In this document: piece by piece, positions 43,974 to 51,997 of the stretch
Position numbering within the stretch: the first letter of the stretch is position 1
Layout: each line of letters begins with the position of its first letter
Assembly (NCBI RefSeq): GCF_008014775.2
Contig: NZ_CP144914.1
Coordinates: forward strand, 1,612,001-1,676,000
Direction: 5' to 3'
DNA: 64,000 nt
From: Alkalicoccus halolimnae
GTDB taxonomy: Bacteria; Bacillota; Bacilli; Bacillales; Salisediminibacteriaceae
Translations under genes and position numbers: made by a program
Notes under the pieces: generated by a model
Databases searched by the model: none
The model's input: only the letters and a program-made list of their open reading frames with translations
What the model was told of the DNA's origin: nothing

Positions 43974-44109
43974 TTACATTTTAAACAAAACTTAAAGAAA
44001 TAGTATTAGTAATATTCCTTACATTAGAACAGGTACTGAATAGACCTTTTCCGCAGTCTTTTATTTTTCTGCAGGGAAGCATTTATTAAAAACGGGATTT
44101 AAATAATTA

Positions 44110-45099
44110 ATGGAAAGAAGCGATCCTATCATGTTTGGCATTGGCTATAGAACGTTAAAAACAGCAGCGGGTGCTGCTCTGGCAGTTTTGATTGCCCAGT
44201 CGCTTCAGCTCGATTTCTTTGCTTCAGCTGGGATCCTTGCTATTCTCTGTATTCAAAAGACACGCAAAAAGTCACTGCTTAGCGCGTGGGAGAGATTTTC
44301 TGCCTGTATTCTGGGTATTCTTATTTCTGCAGTAATATTTGAATTTATCGGGTATTACTTTTTCAGTGTAGCTGTCGTGCTGCTTTTGTTCATACCACTG
44401 ACAGTAAAATTGAAAATAACCTCTGGTATTGTTACAAGTACTGTCATCATGTTTCATATCTACACGGTCGGTAATCTCAGTACGGGATTAATTTTGAATG
44501 AGCTGGCGTTAATTACGATCGGGGTTGGCATTGCGATGCTTATGAATATTTATATGCCAAGCAACGAAGCGAAATTGGACGGCTTGAAGCAGGAAATCGA
44601 AGCATGCTACGCAGCTATTTTTCACGAGTTCGCTACGTTTATTCGATACGGCGACAGTGAGTGGACTGGCGAAGAAATTACAAAGTCTACAGAAATATTG
44701 GAAGACGCAAAAAACCTTTCTCTTCAAAATCTTGAAAACCACATTCTTCGCTATGAAGATACCTATTATCATTATTTTAAAATGAGAGAAAAACAACTTG
44801 ATATTATAGAGCGTATACTTCCCCTTTTAACCACTATTGATTATCATGTGAGCCAGGCCGATATGATAGCGGGATTTATGGATACGCTTGGAGACGGAGT
44901 CAATTCGAAAAATACTGCTTATATTTTTATTGACAAGCTGGAGGAACTGCAGGAGTCCTTTAAGGAAATGCCGCTGCCAACTACAAGAGAAGAGTTTGAA
45001 GCTCGCTCAGCTCTTGCTCATCTAGTACGTGAACTGGAACAGTATCTTGCTATTAAACAGCAGTTTAAAACGACGAAAGAATATGGCATATTTGAATAA
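44110..45099 (+). CDS. yqjA: YqjA-like membrane protein (aromatic acid exporter-like)
   Basis: A 329-aa protein with five or six N-terminal hydrophobic helices (about 12-150) and a C-terminal soluble helical domain (about 155-329), the layout of the DUF939/aromatic acid exporter-like family to which B. subtilis YqjA belongs. The substrate is unknown. An ATG at 44131 (MFGIGYRTLKTAAGAALA) is an alternative start; neither has a strong ribosome binding site. The neighbourhood (brxB before, mutase genes after) matches yqjA. Confidence 0.85.
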   Translation: MERSDPIMFGIGYRTLKTAAGAALAVLIAQSLQLDFFASAGILAILCIQKTRKKSLLSAWERFSACILGILISAVIFEFIGYYFFSVAVVLLLFIPLTVKLKITSGIVTSTVIMFHIYTVGNLSTGLILNELALITIGVGIAMLMNIYMPSNEAKLDGLKQEIEACYAAIFHEFATFIRYGDSEWTGEEITKSTEILEDAKNLSLQNLENHILRYEDTYYHYFKMREKQLDIIERILPLLTTIDYHVSQADMIAGFMDTLGDGVNSKNTAYIFIDKLEELQESFKEMPLPTTREEFEARSALAHLVRELEQYLAIKQQFKTTKEYGIFE

Positions 45100-45220
45100 T
45101 TTAAGTTCTCGCGGCTGATTATAGAAAGAACACTGAATGCTAAAGAGTTTTAAATAAAGGCTCTGGCAGCGTTCATTGTTAATCTTTCGTGTTAATCTTT
45201 CAGTTAAACTCCTCTGGAAC

Positions 45221-45270
45221 GCTGCAGGCGAAGGAGCCTCAGTCACTCCAAAAACAACATGGAGCTTTAA
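45221..45270 (-). repeat. Inverted fragment of a second repeat type
   Basis: On the minus strand this reads TTAAAGCTCCATGTTGTT, continuing through GGCTCCTTCGCCTGCAGC. It matches 61619-61675 (TTAAAGCTCCGTGTTGTT, continuing through GGCTCC and CTTCGCCTGCCGC) with a small insertion. It directly precedes dispersed repeat copy 3. Confidence 0.7.
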
Positions 45271-45574
45271 AACAAAAGCAGGCATGCAGATTCGCTGCCT
45301 TATGGTGGATGTGCACAGCCTTCTATTGGAATGGAGCTTCCCCTTTATACAGGTCGAATCCCTGATGTTCAAGAAGAGGTTTTTTAGAAGAAAGGTGCTG
45401 TCCTGTCTTTTTAATCGTAAGCTGTAGTGGAGATGGGGCGGCTCCGGGGCGATGGAGGACGGGCCCCACTCCACACGAACGCAGGGAGAAAGGGATTAGC
45501 TGAAGCCGGTCCTGCGCTCCCGTGGAAACGAAAGCGCACGTTCATCGCTTATCTACTTTATTTTCAAAGCAGCC
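45261..45574 (+). repeat. Dispersed mosaic repeat, copy 3
   Basis: Contains CCTTCTATTGGAATGGAG, CCTTTATACAGG, CGTAAGCTGTAGTGGAG, a hairpin-forming block in which GTGGAG and GGGGC pair with GCCCC and CTCCAC, GGATTAGCTGAAGCCGG, and the 3' end TTTATTTTCAAAGCAGCC. It ends a few bases before the terminator arm interrupted by the transposon. With its upstream part it fills the gap after yqjA. Confidence 0.85.
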
Positions 45575-45578
45575 TATT

Positions 45579-45592
45579 AAAAAAGGAGCCGG
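45579..45592. terminator. Left arm of a terminator split by the transposon
   Basis: AAAAAAGGAGCCGG here and CCGGCTCCTTTTTT at 50118-50131 are perfect complements. Joining them across the transposon, with one copy of the target duplication as the loop, rebuilds a 14-bp bidirectional terminator that would have served prli42. Confidence 0.85.
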
Positions 45593-45600
45593 GCATAAAG

Positions 45601-45627
45601 TAACGGGTTCAGTTTTGGAGTACAAAA
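45601..45627 (+). repeat. Left terminal inverted repeat of the transposon
   Basis: A 27-bp sequence perfectly complementary to 50082-50108, preceded by the GGCATAAAG target duplication. Confidence 0.95.
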
Positions 45628-45690
45628 ATCAAAAAAACATCTATTTTAACACCAATTTCACAACACCATTAACGAAATAAAATATCACAC

Positions 45691-45726
45691 AAAATCGCTT
45701 GATAATTAAATCAAGCGATTTTTTAA
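45691..45726 (+). terminator. Hairpin terminator near the transposon left end
   Basis: AAAATCGCTTGA pairs with TCAAGCGATTTT around TAATTAAA and continues into TTTTT. It may insulate transposon genes from outside transcription. Confidence 0.7.
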
Positions 45727-45853
45727 TTAAAAATTCAATAAAGGGAATTGGTTTTTCATGGTAAAATTAACATATATGAATCTTAGCCTACTGATAAAAC
45801 TAATTGAACGAGCTAGAAGAATGACATAGCCAAAACTATCCGAGGAGGGTTTT

Positions 45854-46306
45854 ATGCATCCAACAGAAGTTATAGAGTTTATAGTTGTAGGGGGAATCGT
45901 TGCAGTAACCATAATTATTTCCTTTATTTTAAAAGGTAAATGGAGAAAGCTTGGATGGGCAATAGCATTAGCCTTACTTTTAGCGTACTGTGTATTTTTT
46001 ATAGTTCGTCCTTATTGGATTGATACACAAATTGAGACAAAAGTTGAAATGTTGGAGCCGCATTTAGAACAACAGTATCCAAATGAGGATTGGATGATTA
46101 CAACCGTTCCTCATCGAGAAGATGGGTACGCGCACCTCAATCCCTATTATATTGGGGTAGTTTTCGAAAGCGAGCCCGATGTTACTTATCATTATTGGGT
46201 AGATAAGAATAACATCTATCAAATTAGTTATTCGACAAATAAAAGTTTAGACGAGTTAAAGTATAAAGAAAGTGAAGAAGCCAATGACTTAACAAGATTG
46301 TGGTAA
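45854..46306 (+). CDS. Transposon cargo: small membrane protein of unknown function
   Basis: A 150-aa protein with two transmembrane helices (about 7-26 and 33-52) and an extracytoplasmic-looking C-terminal domain (55-150) with EDWMITTVPHREDGYAHLNPYYIGVVFESEPDVTYHYWVDK. The arrangement recalls small DUF3139-type proteins, but I cannot assign a family. GAGGAGGG precedes the ATG, and a terminator follows. By eye its base composition is more AT-rich than the surrounding core genes. It lies inside the transposon. Confidence 0.72.
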   Translation: MHPTEVIEFIVVGGIVAVTIIISFILKGKWRKLGWAIALALLLAYCVFFIVRPYWIDTQIETKVEMLEPHLEQQYPNEDWMITTVPHREDGYAHLNPYYIGVVFESEPDVTYHYWVDKNNIYQISYSTNKSLDELKYKESEEANDLTRLW

Positions 46307-46350
46307 CCTTCAATCTTACTGCGGAAGGCGTTAGTTAAAAAAGAAAATAT

Positions 46351-46388
46351 AAAAATGGAAAGGAGAAGTCCATCTCCTTTCCATTTTT
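46351..46388. terminator. Terminator after the cargo membrane protein
   Basis: AAAAATGGAAAGGAGA pairs with TCTCCTTTCCATTTTT around a 6-base loop: a 16-bp stem that could act in both directions. Confidence 0.88.
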
Positions 46389-46399
46389 ATTTAGTAAAA

Positions 46400-46758
46400 G
46401 GCTCTGTTAAATTTTGGTTGAAAATTGCAAAGTAGGAACAAATGTTCTGTAACGGTAGTAATAAATAATGGAAAAGTTCGCACGAAGAGGCTTTATCACA
46501 TCCAGAATGTGAACAATTACCACAGCAGGCTAAAAGACTGGATACAGCGATTTAACGGAGTGGCAACCAAATACCTAAACAATTATCTTACGTGGTTTCA
46601 AGTGTTAGAAAGTGTTCATCATCAACGAAATGAAGTTACCATGAATGAGATCATTATAAAAGGGAATTTAATTCCAAGTGTAGAAACCTATGATACACTT
46701 AGGCTATCTAAGTTCACGAAATAATCATATTTCTTATTAAACTAATTGGACAGTGTTA
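46400..46758 (+). pseudogene. Internally deleted IS1595-family copy (transposase C-terminal remnant)
   Basis: The open frame 46425-46724 (99 codons) contains [38 protein letters not shown], the C-terminal end of IS1595/ISXO2-type transposases. The rest of the enzyme is missing. A left end resembling an inverted repeat (GGCTCTGTTAAATTTTGG) sits only 25 bases before the frame; a partly matching right end (reverse-complement of CAGTGTTA upstream) lies near 46750. This suggests a deletion derivative from end to end, nested in the larger transposon. It cannot transpose on its own. Confidence 0.65.
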
Positions 46759-46782
46759 CTTGAAAAAGAAGGAGTGGATTGT

Positions 46783-47289
46783 TTGGGAAAATTCATTTTT
46801 ATTGTTATCTGCCTTTGTTTATTGTTATTTGTTGTGGGATGCAACCAAGAATCTGCAATTGAGTGGAAAGATTCTAAAGAAGAAGCCATTGAATCTGGAT
46901 TAGAACAAGAAGAAACAGAACGTGAATCTGTTTTATCAATTGAAGAGTTTGAAGACGAAACATTTGTGTTTTACGAGAATATGGGTGGGTTAGGTGTAGC
47001 ACATATAGCGAAAAGCGAAAAAGGCTATGGTTGGAACAGAAGCCAACCATATAATGATTTTGAGGTTGAAGGAGAACTAGCTTATTCTACATCTGAGTTT
47101 GATATGAAAATGGAAACTGGGTTAGAGATTTCAGTTTTAATTGGAAAAACGTTTGATTCGTCGATTCAGGAAATGAAGCTTTTAGAAGATGGAACAGAAA
47201 GAAAAGTAAAGGTTTTAGGAGAGAATAGATTCTTTTACGCTCTTCATAAAAAGCCTTTTGATACTGTCTCTGTTTCTCCAATCCGATGA
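46783..47289 (+). CDS. Transposon cargo: predicted lipoprotein
   Basis: From TTG 46783 the 168-aa protein has a lipoprotein signal peptide: a short basic start, a hydrophobic core (FIFIVICLCLLLFVV) and a lipobox ending VVGC. An acidic linker (about 22-50) is followed by a mixed domain, VFYENMGGLGVAHIAKSEKGYGWNRSQPYNDFE. Its function is unknown. AAGGAG lies nine bases before the TTG; an earlier in-frame start at 46753 lacks one. It starts just after the IS1595 remnant. Confidence 0.72.
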   Translation: MGKFIFIVICLCLLLFVVGCNQESAIEWKDSKEEAIESGLEQEETERESVLSIEEFEDETFVFYENMGGLGVAHIAKSEKGYGWNRSQPYNDFEVEGELAYSTSEFDMKMETGLEISVLIGKTFDSSIQEMKLLEDGTERKVKVLGENRFFYALHKKPFDTVSVSPIR

Positions 47290-47411
47290 TACGAATATAT
47301 AGTCTCATTGGTATTGTAGTAAATGGTAGCGTTAGTTGAAGAAGCCATTAATAACTACAGAAAGGACTTCTATATATTTGGAAATCCTTTCTCGATAGTA
47401 AAAACAACATT

Positions 47412-47610
47412 AAACTTTACCAGAGACACTCTTGCAAAAGCCTTGCACCATGAAGCATGAAAATGGCCTTTTGCAGGAAGGAAACTTTCCCTCTATACAG
47501 GTGGAAGGATGTTCAAAAGAAGATCATCTTTATGAGAAGGCAGCCCCTGCTCTTTCTTTATTAACGAAAGCGCACCTTTATCTCTTATCAACTTTATTTT
47601 CAAGGTAGCC
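47412..47610 (+). repeat. Dispersed mosaic repeat, copy 4 (short, inside the transposon)
   Basis: Has the 5' block (CTTTACCAGAGACACTCTTGC, GAAAATGGCCTT, CTATACAGGTGGAAGGATG) and the 3' block (AACGAAAGCGCAC, ACTTTATTTTCAAGGTAGCC), but lacks the GC-rich hairpin block between them, about 150 bases. It lies between the lipoprotein gene and the end of the transposase gene. Confidence 0.85.
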
Positions 47611-47635
47611 TAGTAAAAATCCTTTGCGTTTAAAC

Positions 47636-49594
47636 TTACTGCATAAATATTATATCGTTTAAGCTGAATTTTTTATTGGTTATCCCTAATTGTTGAGCTG
47701 GTGTTTCCACGGTAGTTTTTCTGCCCGTTTTGGATTTGTAGGGCAAACAGAAGTTATAATAGGTGCGCAATATAGTCACAGCCATCTGTGCATAACGAGG
47801 GTTGAAGTTAGAGTAAATATAACTTTTGCCATCCCCACGAGCAGTTGTTAGAGGTCTTTCCAAAATAGATAATCTTCTACGTATGCTTTGGATAAAGGCG
47901 TTTATGGCATTGTCGTTCACATGGAGGATCATATTCGCAATGTCATTCGGTTCATATGCTGATAAGTCCGTTGTACAATCTACCCAACGAAAACCTCTAT
48001 CTGGAGTTCCCAACGGGTGTTCCATTCGATTAGCTGCATATTTTTTATGGGTTCCGCTTTTGGTTGTGATTTCCTTATGGAACTGGTGAGTGTGGAATCG
48101 TTCTTCTAATTGCAACAGGGCAAGTTTTCTTAATGACCTCGTATCGTAACCCATACGCCTTCCCCAAGTAATTAAATATTGCTGAGCAAGTTTAAATTCG
48201 TCATGAGCTTGTTTTTTCGATTTTGTTTTATCCGTTTGACAAAGAAAATGGTGAGCGTCAGACATCCTGAATTCCGTCGAGAACACACGAAAGAATGCTG
48301 TTGTGATCGAGTCATCTTGGTCAGTTATAAAACGCCATTCTGAAGCATTTACGAGCTGTTTGATGTGCCAAAAATGGGCAATACTAGTGTAAGAGGAGTT
48401 GACGTGTAATCCCTCGACATAGTTAGCTCTTCTTTCGACTTCAGATAGTTTTTTAAAATATTCTTCGTTTGTCTGCGTATCATTTTCAGCAGGAGGTTGA
48501 GGGTAATCCGAATACTTAGGGAAACGAGCATTTTTCTTTGCAAAATGGTTTAAGTGGTCATCTTTATACAGGAGAGTATCGAGAGCAATATCTCCAATTT
48601 CTATATTCCAATCGTAGGCTACATCCGCACGAAATACATACCTTGAAAAAACTTCAGCTGTAACCACGATACTCGTTGGGAATCTCGCTTCTTCTAGGTC
48701 ATCATATTGCTTTCCTCCCATTCCTTTTCTCCGAACATTATTTAAATAGTAAGTCATCTTATCGGTATTAAGCCACATTTCCTCGAAGGAGGTTTGTCGT
48801 AAAGGCGCCTTTTCATACCTTTCTAAAAATTCCAAACAACGCCGATATAGCCACTCTAATTTTTGGTAATAAGTTCCTCTTCCAATATCGAGTATCTCAC
48901 AGGTTCTCGTGACGGGGGTGCGATTCAACAAGAGCTTGGCAAAAGTAGGAACTATATCACTCTTTTGCTGATGATAAGTGATGGATTGTTTTCTGCTGGG
49001 CAACACATTCGTAAACTTCTTACAGTTTTTGCATTGATATCTTTGGGAATTCGATTTACTTTTCCCTCTCTTATAAAAGGTTTTCGAGTCATTGAAGGGG
49101 GTTGCTTCTTCAGTCAGACAGCCTCCCTTATGAAATTCATAATCTGGATCTATATCTTTAAGAGATTCTATGGCAGCCAGTCTAGCAATTTCTTCAACGA
49201 TGGACCAATTGGAATAAGTCTGTGTAGAACAACCTAGTACAGCACCGCTTTTTGGGTTTAACGGATCGGGATTGCATTTTAATGCTTTCCTATCACCTGT
49301 TCCCGTTAATTTGTATCTATTGGGCTTCCTCTTGACAGAGGTGAACTTTTCTTGGTGTAATCCCTTCCACTTACAGTAAGGGTCCGTACAGAAATTATAT
49401 TGAACTTGATAAGCTTGCCCCTTCCATTTAAAGTCGATTGGAACAAACAATGAATCCTTAAACTTCGTAGCGAACTTCTTAGATGTTAATAAAGGATAGA
49501 GTTCGTTCCTTGCTTTTATTTCCTCGCTTGAAATTGGAACTTCAATATGGACTATTGATTCATCTGGAGTTGCTAATCGTTTTAATTTAGCCAA
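47636..49594 (-). CDS. Large DDE-type transposase of unassigned family
   Basis: A 652-aa protein. The N-terminal part has cysteines at 69, 74, 107, 122, 159, 188 and 191, the last two in YQCKNCKKF, suggesting zinc ribbons. A helix-turn-helix-like region follows (RTPVTRTCEILDIGRGTYYQKLEWL, about 225-250). The catalytic core is plausible: Asp278 in LNTDKMTYYL, Asp425 in FITDQDDS, and Glu579 in LSILERPLTTA or Glu630 in TTVETPAQQLGI. YYNFCLPYKSK and TPAQ-LGI are typical ends of RNase H-fold transposases. The upstream small gene overlaps by eight bases. It is the only complete recombinase-like gene in the transposon. Confidence 0.78.
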   Translation of the reverse strand: MAKLKRLATPDESIVHIEVPISSEEIKARNELYPLLTSKKFATKFKDSLFVPIDFKWKGQAYQVQYNFCTDPYCKWKGLHQEKFTSVKRKPNRYKLTGTGDRKALKCNPDPLNPKSGAVLGCSTQTYSNWSIVEEIARLAAIESLKDIDPDYEFHKGGCLTEEATPFNDSKTFYKRGKSKSNSQRYQCKNCKKFTNVLPSRKQSITYHQQKSDIVPTFAKLLLNRTPVTRTCEILDIGRGTYYQKLEWLYRRCLEFLERYEKAPLRQTSFEEMWLNTDKMTYYLNNVRRKGMGGKQYDDLEEARFPTSIVVTAEVFSRYVFRADVAYDWNIEIGDIALDTLLYKDDHLNHFAKKNARFPKYSDYPQPPAENDTQTNEEYFKKLSEVERRANYVEGLHVNSSYTSIAHFWHIKQLVNASEWRFITDQDDSITTAFFRVFSTEFRMSDAHHFLCQTDKTKSKKQAHDEFKLAQQYLITWGRRMGYDTRSLRKLALLQLEERFHTHQFHKEITTKSGTHKKYAANRMEHPLGTPDRGFRWVDCTTDLSAYEPNDIANMILHVNDNAINAFIQSIRRRLSILERPLTTARGDGKSYIYSNFNPRYAQMAVTILRTYYNFCLPYKSKTGRKTTVETPAQQLGITNKKFSLNDIIFMQ

Positions 49595-49838
49595 TTGACT
49601 CCTCCTTCACGACATCTTCTATATCCAGTTGTTTTACGATCCTTTTCTTGTTCCGCTTATTCGAAATCCACTCTATAAAATGTTCATCTTTCAAAATGTT
49701 TTTAAGGAAGGTATCTACGACTTCGCTTTCGGTGTATTCCGTGTACTCAGCATAGTATTTTACAATTGCTCTAGCCTGTTCGGATAATTTCCAATTCACT
49801 GGCTCGGCGTTCTTTTTTTTCGGTTTGATAAAATCCAT
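49587..49838 (-). CDS. Small partner protein encoded upstream of the transposase
   Basis: An 83-aa protein from ATG 49838 (MDFIKPKKKNAEPVNWKLSEQARAIVKYYAEYTEYTESEVVDTFLKNILKDEHFIEWISNKRNKKRIVKQL). The ribbon-helix-helix-like strand-helix-helix pattern (VNWKLSEQARAIVKYYAEYTEYTESEVVDTFLKNIL) suggests DNA binding. It overlaps the transposase start by eight bases, so the two are probably translated together. AAGGTGG lies ten bases before the ATG; the longer frame to 49880 lacks a site. Its role may be repression, end recognition or target choice; none is shown by the sequence. Confidence 0.68.
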   Translation of the reverse strand: MDFIKPKKKNAEPVNWKLSEQARAIVKYYAEYTEYTESEVVDTFLKNILKDEHFIEWISNKRNKKRIVKQLDIEDVVKEESIG

Positions 49839-50081
49839 CCATTTCCACCACCTTACTATATGTAATACCATATTTAACAACCCATTTTAAGGCCAAATTA
49901 TTAGCACTCGTTTTAACAGCAACTTTAACAAGTGACTATGATCCAGCAGTCACTTGTGATTTACTAGGTGATTTCCCATGCTAATTTCGTTGTTAAAGCC
50001 TCATAAATATTGATATATCAACAAAAGAAAACAAGCTAAACCATGAGCGATTTAGCTTGTTAAATGACCTTCTATTTTTAA
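49839..50081 (-). promoter_or_regulatory. Leader and control region of the transposase unit
   Basis: This 240-base gene-free stretch holds three inverted repeats: ACAAGTGACT/AGTCACTTGT (49928-49957), the 12-base palindrome TTGATATATCAA (about 50010-50021) and ACAAGCTAAA/TTTAGCTTGT (50031-50060). They may be operators, transposase sites or insulators. No single promoter stands out. Confidence 0.45.
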
Positions 50082-50108
50082 TTTTGTACTCCAAAACTGA
50101 ACCCGTTA
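50082..50108 (-). repeat. Right terminal inverted repeat of the transposon
   Basis: A 27-bp sequence perfectly complementary to the left end at 45601-45627, followed by the second GGCATAAAG target duplication (50109-50117). Confidence 0.95.
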
Positions 50109-50135
50109 GGCATAAAGCCGGCTCCTTTTTTTGTT

Positions 50136-50225
50136 TTAGAAATAAGAAACTCCCATGAGTGCTGTCCCTAAAAACATAACGATAATCATCATATATACGA
50201 TCGCTTTACGAAACTTACGAGGCAT
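50136..50225 (-). CDS. prli42: Prli42-like stressosome-associated small membrane protein
   Basis: A 29-codon gene: MPRKFRKAIVYMMIIV followed by MFLGTALMGVSYF. A basic N-terminus leads into one hydrophobic helix. GAGGAGGGAAAAGT precedes the ATG on the minus strand, one of the best ribosome binding sites in the area. Size and pattern match Prli42, the miniprotein that anchors the stressosome at the membrane in Listeria and relatives. Its terminator began right after the stop codon and is now split by the transposon, so its transcript would run into the element's right end. Confidence 0.75.
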   Translation of the reverse strand: MPRKFRKAIVYMMIIVMFLGTALMGVSYF

Positions 50226-50353
50226 ACTTTTCCCTCCTCAAATGATCTGCTGTTACCATTTTAGCTTGAAATCAAGTAGTTTTCAAGAGTATGGGAAGAG
50301 TCGGGGCTCCTGTGATATAATAAACTTGTATTTCATTGCAGAAGGAGGTACTT

Positions 50354-51997
50354 ATGGAAGAATTTAGAGAGGCTTATGAAACTTGGCAGAAACAAGTACA
50401 GAAACAGCTTGAAAGAAAACCGGAGAGAAAAACAACGTTCCAAACAGGATCCCAGCTGGACGTAGAACGCGTGTATTTCCCCGAGAATATTGATAACGCT
50501 TACATAAAAGACCTTGGTTTTCCGGGTGAGTATCCTTATACGAGAGGGATTCGTAATACGATGTACCGCGGACAGCTTTGGACAATGAGGCAGTATGCCG
50601 GTTTCGGTTCAGCTGAGGAAACGAATCAGAGGTTCCGCTATTTACTTGATCAAGGTCAGACCGGTTTGTCTGTAGCTTTTGACCTTCCGACTCAGATAGG
50701 CTATGACTCGGATGATCCGATGTCTCTTGGGGAAGTAGGGAAGGTTGGTGTAGCTATAGATTCTCTTGAAGATATGGAGCTTCTTTTTGACCAGATTTCA
50801 CTTGGTGAAGTCAGTACATCTATGACAATTAATGCCCCTGCAGCAGTGCTGCTGGCAATGTACATTGCTGTAGCAGAAAAACAGGGAGTTAAACCTGAAA
50901 AGATAAGAGGAACAATTCAAAACGATATTTTGAAAGAATATATTGCCCGTGGAACTTATATTTACCCGCCTAAACAGTCGATGCGCTTAATAACGGATAT
51001 ATTTGCCTACTGCAGTAAGGAAGCTCCCTCGTTTAATACGATAAGTATCAGTGGTTATCATATCAGGGAGGCTGGTTCTACGGCTGTCCAGGAACTCGCT
51101 TTTACTATTGCTAATGCAATAGCCTACGTGGAGGCTGCACTTGAAGCGGGACTTGATATTGATGAATTCGGTCCCCGGCTTGCATTCTTCTTTAACGGAC
51201 ACAATGATTTTTTCGAAGAAGCAGCTAAGTTCCGTGCTGCAAGAAGAATGTGGGCAAAATTAATGAGAGAAAGATTCGGCGCCAAAAAACAAAAAAGCGA
51301 ACAGATGCGCTTTCATACGCAGGTGGCGGGCTCTACTCTAACTGCCCAGCAGCCCGAAAACAATGTCGTTAGAGTGGCGCTTCAGGCAATGGCTGCCGTT
51401 CTGGGCGGCACACAGAGTCTTCACACTAATTCGAAAGATGAAGCACTCTCACTCCCTACAGAAGACAGTGCGAGAATTGCTCTGAGAACCCAGCAGATCA
51501 TCGCTCATGAGACAGGAGCAGCTAATACCATTGATCCACTGGGCGGCTCTTATTTTGTAGAGGAACTCACGGACAAGCTGGAAAGAGAAGCATTCCGTTA
51601 CATCGATCATATTGAGGAACTGGGCGGTGCAGTGCAGGCTGTAGAAAAACAGTACATGCAGAGGGAGATCCATCGCGCTGCATACGATGCTCAGAAGCGT
51701 CTGGAAAAAGAAGAGGATATCGTGGTAGGCGTCAATAAATTTCAGGCCGGAGAAGAACAGGCGCCCGATTTATTAAAAGTCGACGATACGTTCGTCAAAG
51801 AGCAGTTAAGAAGGTTAACCGCTCTTCGGGAAAATAGAGATCAGCAGCAGGTTGATGATCTGCTCGAACGTCTGAAGCAGGCGGCTCAAACAGACGAAAA
51901 TCTTATGTATATTATTGTGGAAGCAGTAAAAGCCTATGCTACAGTTGGAGAAATCTGCCATGCACTGCGAAGTGTATTCGGAGAATATACGTCTTAG
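50354..51997 (+). CDS. mcmA: Methylmalonyl-CoA mutase, large (catalytic) subunit
   Basis: TIM-barrel subunit of a B12-dependent acyl-CoA mutase. The 547-aa protein (ATG 50354 after GAAGGAGG) has [34 protein letters not shown], the substrate region [58 protein letters not shown] and [13 protein letters not shown]. It stops before the B12-binding domain, which is encoded separately by the next gene. The tyrosine-rich region near the start (YPYTRG) suits methylmalonyl- rather than isobutyryl-CoA mutase, but specificity is not proven. Confidence 0.93.

Follow-up and report, generated by a model that had tools for sequence, protein, structure and literature searches.

Few DDE transposons are known to pick their target by structure rather than by sequence. 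Mobile elements of another kind, the group IIC introns, are associated with terminator-like stem-loops; they are retroelements spliced from RNA and possess neither a DDE enzyme nor terminal inverted repeats. The dfrG transposon was reportedly first described by Bertsch et al. in 2013, inside Tn6198. It spans 3,276 bp (PMC8544886) and has been given the name Tn7491 (PMC10763498). In the accessible parts of these two papers the word 'terminator' has zero occurrences and the Tn7491 target is not described in such terms; published terminator targeting was not found for this group. The nearest precedent is IS1272/TnSha1 of the IS1182 family. As far as the available part of the source goes, these elements insert into hairpins, several of which are confirmed terminators, with no primary sequence specificity: insertion is blunt and within the stem, the hairpin is partly deleted and a target duplication is absent (PMC4923244).

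The window analysed here is a stretch of 64,000 nucleotides from Alkalicoccus halolimnae (contig NZ_CP144914.1). Its element at 45601–50108 (Table 1), regarded in the first-pass annotation as a transposon of unassigned type, is, with a probability of roughly 0.82, a DDE-type transposon of the Tn7491 (dfrG transposon) group, a reading in which we partly infer the role of the transposase and the targeting scheme. The terminal 27 bases, TAACGGGTTCAGTTTTGGAGTACAAAA, form perfect inverted repeats (27/27 by direct sequence check) and, compared by eye, differ from the Tn7491 end, TAAGTAGTTCAGTTTTGGAGTACAAAA, at three of 27 positions, the other 24 being equal. The transposases of the two elements are 57% identical. 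Common to both are near-perfect ends of about 27 bp starting with TAA, a 9-bp duplication, two genes in the same order and a cargo slot, and the type is accordingly one already described. The cargo differs: dfrG in Tn7491, a lipoprotein-like and a hydrophobic protein here, with dfrG absent. As cargo varies across the group, dfrG is not treated as group-defining.

Table 1. Features of the element and its insertion site (window coordinates).
Feature	Position	Strand	Basis or remark
Host terminator stem, left half (A-run and GC arm)	45579..45591		14th base, 45592, lies inside the duplication; 14/14 complementarity counts it
Target duplication GGCATAAAG, copy 1	45592..45600		sequence
Terminal inverted repeat, 27 bp, cargo-side end	45601..45627	+	sequence
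13-bp hairpin with A and T runs, within cargo-side end	45691..45722		putative replacement terminator
Cargo ORF, 150 aa, hydrophobic segments	45854..46306	+	DUF3139 similarity weak, below cut-off
Perfect 18-bp hairpin, terminator-like, in cargo	46349..46390		predicted hairpin
IS1595-family transposase remnant, C-terminal part only	46425..46724	+	NF033547 match
Cargo ORF, 178 aa, N-terminus lipoprotein-like (our reading)	46753..47289	+	family matches weak only
Interspersed genomic repeat copy, immediately after transposase gene	47401..47620		matches in 7 of 8 genomes of the genus
Transposase, 652 aa; candidate catalytic D278, D425 (or D427), E579	47636..49594	-	ORF, conservation, fold model
Companion gene, 83 aa, 8-base overlap with transposase start	49587..49838	-	ORF, group comparison
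14-bp hairpin and T-run, within transposase-side end	50030..50061	-	putative replacement terminator
Terminal inverted repeat, 27 bp, transposase-side end	50082..50108	-	sequence
Target duplication GGCATAAAG, copy 2	50109..50117		sequence
Host terminator stem, right half (GC arm and T-run)	50118..50131		complementary to left arm

The perfect ends, the 9-bp direct duplication on either side and the flanking arms, which together restore a terminator stem of 14 bp, had all been noted in the first-pass annotation, and each was borne out. The arms (45579–45592 and 50118–50131) are complementary at 14 of 14 bases. Base 45592 is both the final base of the left arm and the opening base of the duplication, so that the loop of the empty site measures 8 nt and the duplication corresponds to the loop plus one stem base. 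A hairpin on the centre of the duplication scored 35, a value matched by none of 1500 control positions sampled in the flanks.

The frame encoding the 652-aa protein is open and gives the single match to this protein in its own genome. The first 26 bases of the element end occur there twice exactly and once elsewhere with three mismatches; this imperfect end (at 2355056) was judged to be a decayed relic, as was another end accompanied by upstream sequence (2551236–2551646), and neither is usable as an extra site. A search for the transposase in seven congeners gave no match (0/7). In all seven the two neighbouring genes are present and adjacent, with a terminator-like hairpin between them (predicted folds, assessed by eye), and the proposed comparison with relatives thus supports an empty site in 7/7. 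The perfect ends and open frame on which a recent insertion had been postulated are confirmed and hint at recency, but the congeners are just 71–78% identical in the stretch beside the insertion. A single intact copy in this genome is also what an ordinary transposon, landing in a terminator once by chance, would leave; this account has a negligible probability, as most of the 52 distinct sites known for the group show the same target type.

These 52 sites, the further copies with the same kind of ends and duplication whose search had been suggested, were called from ends and duplication alone; the group is found across Bacillus-like bacteria. The duplication measures 9 bp at 47 sites and 10 bp at five. 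With the hairpin threshold set at the 99th percentile of control positions within the same flanks, 42/52 sites lie above it, and at 34/52 the centre of the strongest hairpin in the vicinity lies no more than 0.5 base from that of the duplication, the best hairpins having loops of 3 to 11 nt. This shows that in the Tn7491 group the midpoint of the duplication usually falls on the symmetry axis of an intrinsic terminator. The original surmise that the target was chosen as a hairpin now holds for most group sites, as a terminator preference and not an accident, with one refinement: it is the dyad axis on which the duplication is centred, and the duplicated bases do not coincide with the loop. An earlier strict ungapped pairing score (offsets ≤1), by which 36/52 sites had at least 7/10 pairs versus 1.8% of controls, was replaced because stems displaced by a few bases escaped it.

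Ten sites are below the threshold: L020, L143, L033, L152, L157, L021, L162, L145, L012 and L156. By eye, L033 and L145 hold a hairpin, bulged or with its stem partly in the duplication, and L156 and L012 hold none. Tn7491 itself obeys the terminator rule less strictly: the 3,276-bp unit passes at 10/16 sites, two of the ten passing rows (L150 and L161) being one plasmid site, compared with 32/36 for the others. Among 95 fetched loci with a transposase of at least 450 aa in one piece, many of them repeat fetches of one element, 38 gave no call from ends plus duplication; for the most part these were short windows on elements already counted from another locus, lay at the end of a contig, or held copies in which an end was missing, a flank had changed or the flank was too short.

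Most sites appear intergenic. Such a distribution would be expected from selection against gene disruption, if insertion were near-random and only harmless insertions at intergenic terminators persisted. However, just 2.3% of intergenic control positions reach the hairpin threshold, and centring to half a base would be invisible to selection. IS256-type elements from the same bacterial order point the same way, with 1/13 insertions at hairpins, a small sample in which all sites match at 14–15/20, near the minimum, so that some may be chance calls. The settings of this control (ends 14/20, duplication 8–9 bp, length 1.2–2.2 kb, no TAA rule) differ from the main pipeline, its one positive site, L203, depends on a fragmentary transposase, and 37/50 loci yielded no new site. 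Survivorship is very improbable, and on these grounds, together with the flank controls, both it and chance insertion were rejected.

A second regularity surrounds the duplication: an A-run lies about 9–12 bases beyond one edge and a T-run about 9–11 bases beyond the other. At fixed distances A reaches 89% and T 87%, and four A on the left combined with four T on the right are present at 43/52 sites versus 2.4% of control positions. The transposase might therefore read duplex DNA, recognizing the two runs at a fixed spacing of about 30 bp across the 9-bp centre, with arm pairing irrelevant and terminators serving as targets solely because this layout is frequently found there. The weak-hairpin sites L152 and L012 of the 3,276-bp unit retain the runs, and at several weak sites the A-run persists although no stem is present, an arrangement that agrees better with readout of duplex DNA than with sensing of a hairpin. 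Against it, a hairpin of the required strength accompanies 35/43 run-bearing sites versus only 8.7% of run-matched intergenic controls, and L137 and L140 are above the threshold without a left A-run. Duplex readout appears rather unlikely, and we lean towards the view that the paired, structured state of the target is sensed.

Targeting could also be guided by the act of termination and not by DNA, through recruitment by the terminating RNA polymerase or by the RNA hairpin. The targets are terminator-like, and 42/45 sites with callable neighbours adjoin at least one gene 3' end (ORFs of at least 90 aa). Yet 13 codirectional sites have the transposase gene pointing the same way as the traversing transcription and nine have it pointing the opposite way, which amounts to no clear bias, and the insertions show symmetry around the dyad of the DNA; recruitment of this kind is improbable.

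The 652-aa protein passes no family cut-off in Pfam or NCBIfam. Its predicted model adopts a DDE/RNase-H fold (second look with VIA-align), in support of the DDE-type transposition proposed at the outset, and comparison with a viral library returned a single hit under E 0.001, to an IS4-type transposase (4.7e-6). Residues D278, D425, D427 and E579 are invariant in 40 sequences and R586 nearly so; E579 borders a low-confidence stretch of the model (580–596). Conservation marks D278, D425 (or D427) and E579 as candidate catalytic residues, and the protein of about 650 aa is probably the transposase. A ribbon-helix-helix assignment for the companion was dropped, as model confidence was too low (pLDDT 67, three helices).

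Group members share a backbone in which one end is followed by some 250 bp, the companion (about 83 aa), the protein of about 650 aa, a variable cargo slot and the other end. Transposase matches are present in 52/52 elements, some of them broken, and the companion in 51/52, L016 being the exception. Inside the transposase-side end, 31/37 elements have a terminator-like hairpin; the far end contains one in 27/37. In the present element the cargo ORFs support the passenger genes described earlier. The 178-aa protein has relatives at 27–41% identity in 6/59 other genomes searched. The IS1595 remnant matches NF033547 over positions 156–213 of 215 (E 4.5e-15, 56 bits, missing the cut-off of 75); since it lies within the cargo and retains no more than the C-terminal part, it was ruled out as the mobilising enzyme. 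The repeat copy has matches in 7/8 genomes of the genus, the range of the search, with its own genome counted. Rfam returned only sub-threshold matches, judged chance, for 44000–51000. Cargo differs even among some elements whose backbones are 91–97% identical, which makes the question of gene pick-up directly testable. In 37 elements the stretch separating the transposase gene from the cargo was scanned for a relic end: only L144 reached 15/20, within the range of shuffles, and cargo capture by right-end read-past to a pseudo-end, as in the TnSha1 model, is unsupported in present copies.

In the proposed mechanism, a transposase dimer would capture a two-fold symmetric, hairpin-capable target and join each end at a distance of 4.5 bp from the axis, one on either side. 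The element's own terminators would take over from the split one, which would make insertion cheap for the host and let cargo spread in a near-neutral site; the pattern of a terminator split and terminators brought along suggests how the element spares its host. The fuller proposal, of a DDE family that senses DNA secondary structure, with the extruded terminator hairpin or cruciform as landing mark, apex joining 4.5 bp off the axis and a terminator swap, is offered tentatively, as somewhat short of an even chance. Were it true, the group would serve Bacillota as a natural gene vector that lands in safe harbours and whose cargo can be exchanged, dfrG having been one such cargo.

The IS1 family shares a target duplication of about 9 bp, with ends and size unlike those of the present element. 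A zinc ribbon and HTH resemble residues 169–255 of the 652-aa protein (NF033558), at 27 bits versus a family cut-off of 100 and with the catalytic part unmatched; at E 0.01, NF033558 matches 37/40 group members (best 2.2e-8) and PF00872 (Transposase_mut, the profile of IS256/Mutator-type transposases such as ISCth4) 0/40 members scanned. The transposon itself is of an already published type; new here is the terminator target common to the Tn7491 group. This target helps to explain the landing of the dfrG transposon, a close relative that carries a trimethoprim-resistance gene between bacteria and whose reported spot between two convergent genes would fit. Like IS1272/TnSha1, as far as the accessible account of those elements extends, the Tn7491 group targets terminator hairpins and carries an extra gene, an adjacent one in IS1272/TnSha1. 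Unlike them, it retains both arms and generates a 9-bp dyad-centred duplication, combining near-base precision with a duplication that the closest precedent found does not make.

The element in the window extends over 4508 bp and is bounded by inverted repeats that agree at 27 of 27 positions. The direct duplication GGCATAAAG adjoins it on each side, and outside these copies lie two arms that are complementary at 14 of 14 positions, which bears out the 27-bp ends, flanking duplication and split terminator arms reported in the first-pass annotation. With one duplication copy retained, the flanks read as A-run, GC arm, 8-nt loop, GC arm and T-run, the layout of a predicted bidirectional intrinsic terminator. 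The gene for the 652-aa protein, the putative transposase, and that for an 83-aa companion are both on the minus strand, and the right end is thus the transposase-side end. The element had been left unassigned as to type, a verdict that does not stand: judged by the sequence of its ends, its duplication and its gene pair, it is a member of the group named after the dfrG transposon Tn7491.

An empty site in relatives had been proposed as a check. A protein search revealed no transposase match in the seven other genomes of the genus, two of which are only 80% complete. In all seven, both neighbouring genes are adjacent and the intergenic stretch contains at least one strong predicted hairpin accompanied by a run of A or T (folds judged by eye, with no shuffle control). 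The stem sequences vary, and two congeners (L090, L091) have a longer stretch with more than one hairpin. As the neighbouring stretch is only 71–78% identical to the window, the congeners display the element-free arrangement but provide no date for the insertion.

Target sites across the group were called from two ends starting with TAA (at least 15 of 22 bases equal) and a flanking direct repeat of 8–11 bp, without a hairpin criterion. This procedure yielded 52 distinct sites from 64 loci, with a duplication of 9 bp at 47 and 10 bp at five; since L150 and L161 represent a single plasmid site in two variants, at most 51 are independent. Each site was scored by the best hairpin with a loop centre no more than 3 nt from that of the duplication, against 74,929 pooled control positions from the same flanks. 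The hairpin exceeds the 99th percentile of controls at 42 of the 52 sites and the 99.9th at 20. When centring is not required, the centre of the strongest hairpin in the neighbourhood still lies no more than 0.5 base from that of the duplication at 34 sites and no more than 1.5 bases from it at 43. Among 46 sites (those with a 9-bp duplication, L161 omitted), A accounts for 89% of the bases at positions 10 and 11 beyond the left duplication edge, and T for 87% at positions 9–11 beyond the right edge. Neighbouring genes (ORFs of at least 90 aa) were callable at 45 sites and not at seven: 20 contexts are convergent, 22 codirectional and three divergent, and the divergent call at the window site is judged an artefact of short, spurious ORFs in the flank.

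The 99th-percentile score is reached by 2.3% of 57,170 intergenic positions, and by 8.7% of 2,612 intergenic positions with A4 on the left and T4 on the right, compared with 35 of 43 such sites in the group. An IS256-type control from the same order (13 distinct sites from 50 loci) shows a hairpin at one site and both runs at none. Against 42 of 52 the hairpin count gives a Fisher p of 1.7e-6, the control being small and its end, duplication and size limits unlike those of the main set; its ends match at only 14–15 of 20 positions and the sole positive rests on a transposase fragment.

Ten sites fall below threshold (L020, L143, L033, L152, L157, L021, L162, L145, L012 and L156), although at L033 and L145 a hairpin missed by the score is visible by eye. 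Six of them (L143, L152, L157, L162, L012, L156) are copies of a 3,276-bp unit, which passes at 10 of 16 sites, versus 32 of 36 for the remainder. This unit is the described transposon Tn7491: the length is that given in PMC8544886, and the 22 bases compared of the end sequence in PMC10763498 are those found here. PMC10763498 also reports a 9-bp duplication and places a second copy between csbB and saeS, which are convergent genes, and uses both Tn4791 and Tn7491 as names, apparently a slip. The copies look nearly identical (equal length, equal identity to the query), which makes post-insertion decay improbable as the cause of the exceptions, and Tn7491 may instead be looser in targeting or read the A/T runs rather than the stem.

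The 652-aa query retrieved 294 proteins with E values of 0.001 or lower; the source names that accompany some of the best 120 are 'insertion element protein', 'transposase-like protein', 'IS1 family transposase', 'transposase' or hypothetical. Own genome included, matches occur in 24 of 120 relatives (E 1e-3), 35 of 397 genomes of the order (E 1e-60) and 6 of 398 of the phylum (E 1e-20). They are also present in 111 of 72,556 plasmid records, 90 of them from Enterococcus and 94 covering at least 80% of the query, and in 3 of 50,697 phage records. Neighbourhoods were inspected in 16 of these plasmid records and all three phage records: a dfrG or dihydrofolate reductase gene adjoins the transposase gene in 18 of the 19, and only a Pontibacillus plasmid (L153) departs from this. 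The Streptococcus suis phage copy is truncated and annotated as diguanylate cyclase/phosphodiesterase. Staphylococcus phages phiSa2wa-st1420 and st1633 (L152, L168; prophage records) carry the dfrG element at different places, and the flank arms in the former pair poorly.

The cargo slot, which separates the transposase gene from the far end, measures 0.55–5.4 kb. Nineteen of 20 chosen cargo ORFs from 14 elements match a Pfam family, including GNAT acetyltransferases, HIT, a GerA/GerB/GerC germinant-receptor set, NUDIX, PadR, DUF3231, a heavy-metal P-type ATPase with an ArsR regulator, ABC exporters, an FtsX-type permease, an ECF sigma factor, a zinc-type dehydrogenase and a hydrolase. The metal ATPase and its regulator lie beside a broken transposase gene; the germinant-receptor set implies that spore germination traits may move with the group. 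Cargo is unrelated in pairs whose backbones are 97% (L111/L131), 93% (L005/L018) and 91% (L095/L136) identical: homology ends just past the transposase gene and restarts 146 bp (L111/L131) and 83 bp (L095/L136) before the far end. The rule has a counterexample, as L006 and L020 match each other from end to end, cargo included, at 89%.

Of 37 elements (one 3,276-bp-unit copy retained), 31 have a terminator-like hairpin, scoring above the 95th percentile of a simple block shuffle, inside the transposase-side end, and 27 have one inside the far end. Such a hairpin also follows the transposase gene directly in 19 of 33 elements, which do not include that of the window. An element that splits a terminator thus tends to bring others. 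In most cases the T-run of the transposase-side hairpin is on the inner side, and the hairpin would therefore stop transcription arriving from the host; the element's own terminators might act as replacements for the one that was split.

In the window's element the slot is occupied by two ORFs, one lipoprotein-like and one hydrophobic, together with an IS1595 remnant and one copy of an interspersed repeat. This repeat, a few hundred bases long, has 300 first-look candidates in the A. halolimnae genome, 40 of which were scored and gave 75 matching pieces; a search within the genus found weaker matches in six of seven congeners. The presence of this repeat suggests that some of the cargo may have been acquired within the genus. 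The same genome harbours two relics of related elements, both lacking a transposase match.

Positions of the element, its repeats and related features
Feature	Position	Remarks
Element	45601-50108	window
Interspersed-repeat copy	47401-47620	directly after transposase gene, within element
Second, diverged repeat copy	45318-45358 + 45527-45583	left flank of element
First relic	L084 5057-6075 (G000:C1:2355056-2356074)	first 83 bp 90% identical, then different gene region; piece matching IS1595-remnant region (80%); 47-bp piece of far-end region
Second relic	L085 5237-5647 (G000:C1:2551236-2551646)	end and stretch upstream of companion gene, 76-81% identity
Germinant-receptor cargo	L095 3595-7332	GerA, spore permease, GerC
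Metal ATPase cargo	L100 4199-6692	with ArsR-type regulator
S. suis phage transposase fragment	L154 5001-5877	next to dihydrofolate reductase gene

In other papers dfrG is invariably found with an 'insertion element protein' (PMC8638950), or is attributed to IS256 or IS257 (PMC4923244) or to IS1595 or ISSsu9 (PMC8343405). The word 'terminator' is absent from the texts of PMC10763498 and PMC8544886, and in the open-licence PMC literature, mostly as listings and abstracts, no account was found of the dfrG transposon or related elements targeting terminators. Such targeting appears to be new, and may be in print elsewhere since the search covered open-licence PMC only. The nearest precedent is IS1272/TnSha1, of the IS1182 family, whose targets are likewise hairpins, terminators included; in contrast to the window element, it inserts blunt, with partial deletion and without a duplication (PMC4923244). 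The window element is not a member of that family.
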